NCBI RefSeq assembly: GCF_000353285.1
Contig: NZ_KB731324.1
Location: 2,436,577 to 2,500,576 of the forward strand
DNA from: Leptolyngbya boryana PCC 6306
GTDB taxonomy: Bacteria; Cyanobacteriota; Cyanobacteriia; Leptolyngbyales; Leptolyngbyaceae
Direction of reading: 5' to 3'
Length of the DNA stretch: 64,000 nt
Shown here: in pieces, positions 40,425 through 42,592 of the stretch
Layout of the letters: each line of letters starts with the position of its first letter
Numbering within the stretch: position 1 is the first letter of the stretch
Made by a program: the position numbers and the translations under genes
Notes under the pieces: model-generated
Databases searched by the model: none
What the model was told of the DNA's origin: nothing
What the model saw: only the letters and a program-made list of their open reading frames with translations

Positions 40425-40482
40425 AGATGCAGGAACTGTTTGGCTGACAAAACCGCCTGAACATTAGCTTGACTGCGTTTCT

Positions 40483-40620
40483 GTCCCGCACCGGATTGAA
40501 AACCCGGTGCTAGCCGTGCAAACTCCCTCAAGGGACTACAGAACCTAGCCAATGGCTCAGAAAGACAGCCTCTTTAGAGACTTTGCCCGGACGAGCACGG
40601 GATTTCAACCTCGTGCGGGA
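40483..40620. repeat. 138-bp element with 9-bp terminal inverted repeats and internal hairpins
   Basis: GTCCCGCAC (40483-40491) and GTGCGGGAC (40612-40620) close a region that contains GCACCGG/CCCGGTGC, AGTCCCT/AGGGACT-type and GCACGGG/CCTCGTGC hairpins. No protein is encoded. The order (outer stem, several inner stems) looks like a multi-branched RNA or a mobile-element end. Positions of the arms were read by eye. Confidence 0.5.
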
Positions 40621-40621
40621 C

Positions 40622-40645
40622 AAGTAAAACTTGCAAGTTTTACTT
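40622..40645. terminator. 24-bp perfect palindrome over the S9 peptidase stop codon
   Basis: AAGTAAAACTTG and its reverse complement form a continuous 24-bp palindrome (40622-40645). It includes the last codons of the S9 peptidase gene and its stop. It could be a terminator or simply a binding site. Confidence 0.55.
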
Positions 40646-42592
40646 TAACAAGGTCTCTTTGATAAACATGATGGTGGAATAGAACTGAAAATCAATATTT
40701 CTCTTCTTTGAGAATCCATGACCTTCATCGGTTGCCATCAGATACCAAACCGGAACATTGTTCTTTCTCACAGTTTTTACGATCTGTTCTGCTTCATTTA
40801 ATGGAACTCTTGGATCGTTTTTACCATGAATGACAAAGAGAGGTTTCTTGATTCTTTCCGCATTATTTAACGGAGAAATCTTGAGCAGAAATTCTCTCAT
40901 TTTTGGATCGCGTTCGTCTCCATATTCAACTCGGCGTAAATCCCGACGATAGCCTTCCGTCCGCTCTAAGAAACTGACAAAATTCGAGATTCCGACAATA
41001 TTAATTGCAGCACGAATACGATCGCTATAATTCGTCGCCACCGCCAATGACATATATCCGCCATAACTGCCGCCTGTGACTAAAACTCGATCCTTGTCTA
41101 ACCCCGGTTGAGTCGCAATCCAGTCTAGCAATGCGCCAATATCTTTCACAGAATCTTCGCGTAGATAACCATTATCTAGCTTCAAAAATGTCTTGCCATA
41201 TCCAGTTGATCCCCGCACATTTGGGAAAATTACGGCAACACCTAATTCATTTAAGTAATAGTTGATGCGTCCTAAAAAGCTAGGTCTGGATTGCCCTTCT
41301 GGACCTCCATGAATATTGATAATGACAGGACGTTTGCCTGTGAATTTTGCAGGCGGACGATAGAGAAACCCAGAAATTGTACGATCGTCAAAACTCTTCC
41401 AGCGAACCAATTCTGCTTCTGAGAAATTCGCAGTATTTAATCCACCTGTTTCACTCTCTGTCCAGCGATCGATTTTGTTCGTCACTGTATTCAGCGAATA
41501 TACATCTGCTGTTGAGCGCGAAGAAACTAAAGTAAATCCTAGATCTTGATTATTGCGATGCCAGATAATTCCGCTCACTTGTCCGATCGGCAACTTTGGC
41601 AAAGCTTTCTCTTGATTTGTCGCCGTATCTAGCAAATGCAGCACGCTAATGCCATCTTCATTGGTCACAAACGCAAGCTGTTTGCCATCGTGAGACAAAT
41701 CAAAATCTTCAACATCCCAAGGAATTTGAGTGCTGAGGTAAGTATGCTTGAAGGTTGCTAAATCGATGTAGGCTAAGCGTTGAAATTCCGATTCTCGATC
41801 GGTAATCACATACAATCCTTTGCCATCTTTACTAAACACACCGCCTTGATAAGAAACCTTATCTTTTTCACCTTTTGGCGTGAGTAGCTTTTTCTCACCC
41901 GAAGTCGTATCAAATAACCAAAGATAGCTCTCATTGATCGAGACGTATTCGATGACTAAAAGCTGTTTATCATCGGGTGACCAATTTAATCCACCCCAAC
42001 CGCCGCCTTCAACTTCAGCCAGTAAGCGATCGCTCTTTGGATCGGTTGGATTAATCGTATAAAAATCAGTATCCTTTCCAGTCCGCCGGGTCGAAGTATA
42101 AATCATGCGATCGCCTTGATTCGACCAAACCCCGCCGCTATTCTTCGACTTGCCATCTGTGAGTAACGTAATATCGCCTGTTGCAAAATCATAGCGATAG
42201 TTCTGGCTAAACTCATTGCCGCCTGTATCTTTACTAAACACAAAGTAATCCCCTTTCGTCGGCTGATAACTTGCCCGAAACACAGGTTCAGTAAAGAAAG
42301 TCATCTGCTGCCGACTTCCCAGTGGAAAAGCAACGCGGTGGATTTGAGGCGCGTCTCCGAATCGCGTCACAATCAAGGCTTCGCGACGTTCAGGATGCCA
42401 ACTCACAAATCCTGCGGAACGGAACTGAGTATAGCGATCGACGGTTTGTGCCAACGATTCAGGAATAGGTGGAATGCCTTCGGCGACGAGGTTATCGCCC
42501 GGCGTAATGTTGGTTGTCTGCGCTACTGTCATAGATCCAGAGATGAGAAGAACCGCGAGAACTGCGGCAAAAAAACGTGTAAGAAATCGCAT
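40640..42592 (-). CDS. S9-family prolyl oligopeptidase-like secreted peptidase
   Basis: About 650 residues from ATG 42592 (MRFLTRFFAAVLAVLLISGSM, a signal peptide ending near VAQT). Residues about 60-390 form a beta-propeller of WD-like blades (SPDDKQLL, SKDGKGLYV, SHDGKQLAFV). The C-terminal alpha/beta hydrolase has RPVIINIHGGPEGQ, FPNVRGSTGYG, catalytic Ser in GGSYGGY, Asp in HGKNDPRVP and His in DEGHGFSK. It probably hydrolyses peptides in the periplasm, as do S9 acylaminoacyl or dipeptidyl peptidases. It follows the small secreted gene by 54 bp. Confidence 0.92.
   Translation of the reverse strand: MRFLTRFFAAVLAVLLISGSMTVAQTTNITPGDNLVAEGIPPIPESLAQTVDRYTQFRSAGFVSWHPERREALIVTRFGDAPQIHRVAFPLGSRQQMTFFTEPVFRASYQPTKGDYFVFSKDTGGNEFSQNYRYDFATGDITLLTDGKSKNSGGVWSNQGDRMIYTSTRRTGKDTDFYTINPTDPKSDRLLAEVEGGGWGGLNWSPDDKQLLVIEYVSINESYLWLFDTTSGEKKLLTPKGEKDKVSYQGGVFSKDGKGLYVITDRESEFQRLAYIDLATFKHTYLSTQIPWDVEDFDLSHDGKQLAFVTNEDGISVLHLLDTATNQEKALPKLPIGQVSGIIWHRNNQDLGFTLVSSRSTADVYSLNTVTNKIDRWTESETGGLNTANFSEAELVRWKSFDDRTISGFLYRPPAKFTGKRPVIINIHGGPEGQSRPSFLGRINYYLNELGVAVIFPNVRGSTGYGKTFLKLDNGYLREDSVKDIGALLDWIATQPGLDKDRVLVTGGSYGGYMSLAVATNYSDRIRAAINIVGISNFVSFLERTEGYRRDLRRVEYGDERDPKMREFLLKISPLNNAERIKKPLFVIHGKNDPRVPLNEAEQIVKTVRKNNVPVWYLMATDEGHGFSKKRNIDFQFYSTIMFIKETLLK

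Follow-up and report, generated by a model that had tools for sequence, protein, structure and literature searches.

The 138-bp structure in the window, the 64-kb stretch of DNA that was analysed here, is probably an old REPIN-like, non-autonomous doublet of two inverted arms, and the enzyme for which it most likely serves as substrate is a TnpA of subclass 1.2. The structure is present in many copies, its arms have a common architecture with covarying stems, and these arms lie specifically near one clade of tnpA genes and co-occur with it across genomes. By analogy with IS200/IS605 and with REP/TnpA-REP systems, we infer that this TnpA would bind, cleave and mobilise the arms: it would recognise the hairpins that single-stranded DNA folds into, and would cut and rejoin the DNA beside them. 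A DDE transposase, acting via the inverted-repeat shells that enclose copies, may contribute to their spread.

The features of the window copy are collected in Table 1. Its outer repeats, GTCCCGCAC on the left and GTGCGGGAC on the right, are exact inverted repeats of 9 bp, as the preliminary description had it, and longer arms at 40482-40506/40598-40622 show a complementarity of 84%. Three hairpins had been described inside these repeats, and here the count has to be corrected, because reading of the sequence gave five: hairpins A and B of each arm and a small one in the spacer. The predicted fold of 40475-40650 has a z-score of -6.2 on the plus strand and -8.1 on the minus strand, and it was equalled by none of 200 shuffles on either strand. 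With an HMM that was built without this genome, the left arm scored 36.0 bits (E 3.3e-10) and the right arm 28.4 bits (E 8.3e-8), and there was no match in the reversed window. The same genome has one unit that carries tnpA, and there the gene stands where the window copy has the spacer between its arms. The element lies, as had been noticed before, in a gap between convergent genes, which encode a polysaccharide biosynthesis protein on its 5′ side (plus strand, stop codon 40422-40424) and an S9 peptidase on its 3′ side (minus strand, stop codon 40640-40642).

Table 1. Features of the element and its surroundings in the window (positions in the window; a dot marks features given without strand)
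Feature	Position	Strand	Basis or remark
Outer-shell left remnant	40444..40482	+	begins CTGACAAA, as shells of other genomes do; without matching right end
Outer 9-bp inverted repeat, left	40483..40491	+	sequence
REP-like arm, left (comprises hairpins A and B; minus-strand reading)	40484..40537	-	arm HMM 44.1 bits, E 1e-12
Hairpin B, left	40488..40510	-	sequence and family covariation
Linker, left	40511..40523	-	GGCTA end is the counterpart of the conserved box preceding hairpin B
Hairpin A, left	40524..40535	-	minus-strand loop TTGA; base mismatched in window copy
Inter-arm spacer	40538..40566	.	contains small hairpin AGCCAATGGCT at 40547-40557
REP-like arm, right (comprises hairpins A and B)	40567..40619	+	arm HMM 37.3 bits, E 1.3e-10
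Hairpin A, right	40567..40582	+	sequence
Hairpin B, right	40595..40616	+	sequence
Outer 9-bp inverted repeat, right	40613..40621	+	sequence
Perfect 24-bp palindrome	40622..40645	.	contains S9 peptidase stop codon

The window copy is old, and it is best regarded as decayed and probably immobile. Six long copies are present in this genome, the window copy counted, and four of them share the left flank from 40444 onwards. In the window copy, only this left end of a shell is present; a right shell end was looked for and none was seen. Among relatives, 20 peptidase loci were located and 19 of them were read by eye 3′ of the stop codon, none of which gave an exact empty site. The only relative with a recognisably similar neighbour (G004, locus L051) is without the element and without the palindrome that follows it; approximately 100 other bases are located at the place of the element, and the junction is not exact.

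A genome-wide copy search, which the preliminary description had proposed, found the element at many places. In its own genome (7.26 Mb, five contigs), a DNA search gave five more copies of nearly the full core, which are 83-91% identical to the window copy, together with partial and weaker matches. A covariance model built from 21 cores gave 120 matches at E <= 0.01 that reduce to 62 distinct places, which take in the window copy and two single arms flanking a transposase gene. Thus the case that would have spoken against the preliminary description, a single copy with no covariation among relatives, does not apply, neither for copies nor for covariation (see below). Among 291 cyanobacterial genomes that were sampled, the core was matched at E <= 1e-4 in 68, which belong to 42 of 130 genera, in a survey that scored at most 11 candidates per genome. 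From 30 loci read in the own genome, five duplicated others on the opposite strand, leaving 25 distinct copies. By a crude ORF call, 21 of these 25 overlap no ORF of at least 100 aa (L306, L311, L312 and L325 do), and 13 are located in convergent gaps, 10 in co-directional gaps and none in divergent gaps, with two unresolved.

In each arm, a linker joins hairpin A (as AGTCCnnTTnAnnGGACT) to hairpin B (as GCCcggaatTTnAttccgGGC), which is followed by GCGGG, and two such arms in inverted orientation form the doublet. The linker ends in ATTAG, GTTAG or ATGAG in 63 of 87 arms. The arm alignment comprised 92 half-elements from 46 cores, and the arm HMM was made from those 46 cores; for covariation, 260 arms were aligned, 230 with at most six gaps were kept, and 87 of them were non-redundant (<85% identity). 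In these 87 arms, the ten top covarying column pairs all fall in hairpins A and B, so the covariation of stems among relatives for which the preliminary description had suggested a search is found in both hairpins. Over 13 pairs, 85% of cells were paired, compared with 62% on average and 64% at most in 500 shuffles, and 301 cells were doubly changed compared with a shuffle maximum of 127, the shuffles being of a kind that does not keep relatedness. Controls in which the pairs were slid had 35-58% of cells paired, and further pair types, of which there were 42, were not in excess of those in the shuffles (maximum 43). Because pairing within an arm is just slightly above pairing across arms (82% and 77% for hairpin A, 73% and 69% for hairpin B), a full-length foldback and local hairpins are indistinguishable by this measure. 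The covariation could alternatively have its source in template-switch correction of quasi-palindromes. The RNAalifold consensus of a MAFFT alignment of 21 cores is weak, with 20 pairs and a covariation term of -0.72 kcal/mol, which we read as a result of stems being out of register in that alignment, and the arm-wise test was used instead; model R1 retains the weak RNAalifold structure.

A canonical GTAG REP was considered and is ruled out by the missing GT[AG]G tag, which on the arm strand is present before hairpin B in 0 of 87 arms and before hairpin A in 0 of 87. On the opposite strand, it was found in 0 of 87 arms before B and in 3 of 87 before A. In three copies of G010 and G026 (L132, L152 and L153), a stretch of ∼24 nt (ACCCTTCGGGAAGGCAAAGCCTA or close to it) is located within hairpin A of the right arm; it resembles the cyanobacterial very small dispersed repeats.

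The transposase gene flanked by single arms is a tnpA located at C1:2740776-2741207, ∼264 kb from the window copy. It encodes 143 aa and is the only intact gene, and the only match, of its clade in the genome. Its flanking arms, at 2740648-2740700 and 2741206-2741259, are inverted relative to each other, and the right one overlaps the stop codon of tnpA and is 93% identical to the left arm of the window copy. The protein scores 84.7 bits against PF01797 and 74.2 bits against the NCBIfam model transpos_IS200 (cut-off 55), which matches 24 of 24 proteins, and against REP_Tyr_transpos it scores 22.3 bits, below the cut-off of 80. It is similar to solved TnpA structures, that of ISHp608 among them. 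These results bear on the proposal that the structure is a non-autonomous mobile element which might descend from an IS200/IS605-type end, and support it in part, in that the arms flank an IS200-like tnpA here and in many genomes.

The motifs of this TnpA are DHVH, WQ and YVNHQKRHH. In an alignment of 24 rows, taken from the 30 clade loci after three with stops and three distant ones were left out, H53, H55, W94, Q95, Y114, Q118 and H122 are invariant, and H121 and the D preceding HxH are variable. The sections of Quentin et al. (2018; PMC6006769) that treat TnpA-Y1 subclass 1.2 define it by the motifs DH[IV]H, WQ and Y---Q--HH and a length near 148 aa. Judged by motifs and length, our TnpA appears to fit this subclass, and judged by motifs, so do 23 relatives. 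The same sections describe subclass 1.2 as low-copy, with 'no' in the REP column and with IS200-type terminal structures generally absent (PMC6006769). Since the subclass was thus described there without REPs and generally without terminal structures, its substrate was open.

The arms accompany this clade of genes beyond the one genome. In a first set of 30 clade loci (L188-L217), with proximity defined as an arm within 300 bp, an arm was present on at least one side at 25 of 30 loci and on both sides at 17 of 30. At the other five, which are tnpA relatives (L193, L212, L215, L216 and L217), no arm was detected; L215-L217 are more distant and may represent another subclass. A second scan took the best 80 of at least 554 relatives, 47 of them cyanobacterial and 33 from elsewhere (mainly Chloroflexota and Desulfobacterota). 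Within these best 80 of at least 554, an arm lay within 300 bp at 41 of the 47 cyanobacterial loci, on both sides at 17 and on neither at 6, and among the 33 non-cyanobacterial loci an arm was found at 5, on both sides at 3. Seven of the 47 loci repeat the first set, and arms were found at 35 of the 40 that remain from these best matches. DNA shared with the loci used in HMM training was present at none of the 80 loci of the second scan and, in the first set, at L208 only. No arm was matched in the reversed decoy, which comprised 317,332 bases. In three Chloroflexota records (L270, L273 and L297), the cyanobacterial HMM finds a tnpA homologue with arms on either side, and this suggests an old or a transferred pairing of arm and tnpA.

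For comparison, 30 loci (L156-L185) were taken from 68 Y1_Tnp matches in 15 genomes. Arms were found among them only at two loci of the clade (L168 and L169), and at none of the 28 loci outside it (12 genomes); likewise, no arm was found at any of the 20 peptidase loci. When the core list and the tnpA list are taken as the same draw of 291 genomes, with cut-offs of E <= 1e-4 for the core and E <= 1e-10 for tnpA, the core is present in 68 genomes, tnpA in 46 and both in 32 (odds ratio 13.3, p 1.7e-13, a value that is only a guide because the genomes are related). At these cut-offs, tnpA was not matched in 36 of the 68 core-bearing genomes and the core was not matched in 14 of the 46 tnpA genomes. 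Arrays of doublets surround tnpA at L199, L203 and L208. In the own genome, the arms beside tnpA are clearly nearest to its own dispersed copies (score 46, compared with 32 for the next genome), and across 12 genomes such a match was seen in only 5, of which 3 were ties. This count speaks against regarding cognate pairing within each genome as settled.

Copies of the core are enclosed by shells of several kinds, whose terminal inverted repeats are CTGAGATCTTGCACC in G011, CCACCTGTAAATTTCGG and GAGGATGTTTGAAAAGTATC in the own genome, and CTGACAAA...TTTGTCAG in G010, G026, G040 and others. Matching 3-bp flanks beside terminal inverted repeats are a mark of DDE transposases. For the GAGGATG shell of the own genome, whose origin may be IS5/IS1031-like, identical 3-bp flanks were read by eye at 7 of 15 inspected loci; these seven thus show the terminal inverted repeats and target-site duplication of a DDE-type MITE, and the window copy does not. 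The presence of many copies inside such shells indicates that a DDE transposase probably helped to spread them. Three short GAGGATG shells (C1:974053-974162, 1932224-1932315 and 4473110-4473193) are without the core and contain at most one B-type hairpin, and it is possible that they are excision footprints or ancestral empty shells. The CTGACAAA shell also holds unrelated inserts. At L131, L134, L137, L139, L141, L144 and L151, it encloses another hairpin family (GTAGGTTGGGTT or similar ... AACCCAAC) and not this core. Doublets at L192, 3′ of tnpA, and at L010 are located within a further type of shell, with ends like TAGACCTCTTGCA.

At L115, L120, L122 and L124, the core stands without a shell visible by eye. 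One common inverted-repeat shell for all copies is therefore ruled out, by the several shells and by these apparently naked copies. Because the same core is found in unrelated shells, and shells are found with or without the core, the core is a module whose surroundings change, and it has either been placed repeatedly into hairpin tips or been captured by shells.

The shells could also be understood if the copies were ordinary MITEs of DDE transposases, in which the terminal inverted repeats of the shells move, the core is a passive filler, and the arms beside tnpA are further MITE insertions. The diversity of shells with terminal inverted repeats, the matching 3-bp flanks at those seven of 15 own-genome copies, the GAGGATG shell without core at three loci, and the unrelated inserts of the CTGACAAA shell are all consistent with this explanation. 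We nevertheless regard it as unlikely, because shells that are unrelated contain the same conserved core, which is also found at the four loci where no shell is visible and forms arrays around tnpA. Moreover, a passive filler would not be expected so near one clade of tnpA, as found at 41 of 47 loci (47 among the best 80 of at least 554) compared with 0 of 28 outside the clade.

The preliminary description had also considered a structured RNA. The hairpins might then have a role in transcripts, such as terminating them or stabilising their 3′ ends, and the copies would be kept for this role. This is very improbable. The strong fold and the covariation are in line with it, but both are equally explained by folding of DNA, and the placement of the 25 own-genome copies that were read (13 in convergent gaps and 0 in divergent ones, by the crude ORF call) would also be expected if insertions into promoters were selected against. 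A mobile element fits the copy number, the shells and the nearby transposase gene. Across the whole window there was no Rfam match at the gathering score, and the weak matches were all far below it; a structured RNA of a known family is thereby ruled out.

The 24-bp palindrome that follows directly after 40621 is present and perfect, as had been described, and it is the only perfect palindrome of at least 20 bp in the window; among windows generated by a first-order Markov model, 3 of 200 contained one of at least 24 bp. It had been named as the ending of the element and at the same time called separate. We consider it a separate feature, since no second copy of it was found in the own genome and it is absent from seven other aligned copies of the element. 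It is possibly a bidirectional terminator, and it is not among the terminators listed by a terminator scan. It is hardly credible that the whole folds back by chance or is a local bidirectional terminator that has no relatives. The palindrome alone, with no second copy found, could be such a terminator, but the presence of the core at 62 places of the own genome and in 68 of 291 genomes rules out a chance structure for 40483-40621.

The preferred reading, a REPIN-like doublet, can be placed among known systems. As in IS200/IS605 elements and their non-autonomous derivatives, there is an IS200-type HUH/Y1 transposase with hairpins on both sides of its gene; unlike in those elements, the genome has one tnpA of the clade, there are two hairpins on each side, and doublets are far more numerous than the gene. 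IS200/IS605 insertion sequences have defined ends and insert next to a fixed tetranucleotide without duplicating the target; for the window copy, the locus of G004 was the nearest to an empty site, and its junction is not exact. Cyanobacterial MITEs such as Nezha are small and have terminal inverted repeats. The shells share both properties with them, whereas the core is common to several unrelated shells and is also present where no shell is seen.

REPINs, as characterised in the relevant sections of Bertels and Rainey (2011; PMC3116915), resemble the present element in being inverted doublets whose palindromic arms fold into one long hairpin (here predicted), in having many, mostly extragenic copies, and in having a transposase gene with the same arms at its flanks. 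In contrast to the REPINs of those sections (PMC3116915), each arm here has two hairpins with no GT[AG]G at the foot of A or B, and the partner is an IS200-like transposase of subclass 1.2 and not a RAYT (class 2 TnpA-REP). Because the GT[AG]G tag and a RAYT partner were both tested for and neither was found, we call the element REPIN-like and not a classical REPIN. Di Nocera et al. (2013; PMC3733652), in the sections that concern us here, describe REPs tagged with GTAG or CGTC that form palindrome dimers, cyanobacteria included, and report that some REP dimers are located within longer palindromes, which is a precedent for the shells here. Compared with those tagged REPs as described there (PMC3733652), our arms are longer, have two hairpins and are without GT[AG]G, the tag that our count covered.

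A further-reaching reading is possible, though we would not bet on it: the arms may constitute a new class of REP that is untagged, has two hairpins per arm, is read by TnpA of subclass 1.2 in cyanobacteria and some Chloroflexota, and has its doublets inserted into the hairpin tips of other mobile elements. Insertion into hairpin tips would account for the location of the core in the middle of several unrelated shells. If this were true, mobility would have two tiers, with one element riding on others. In the literature searched, we found no earlier link of this arm family to TnpA-Y1 subclass 1.2. The arm family beside subclass 1.2 genes provides a defined DNA for in vitro tests, by which the job of the enzyme becomes testable, and the link to tnpA would account for a large class of hairpins that are dispersed in cyanobacterial genomes.
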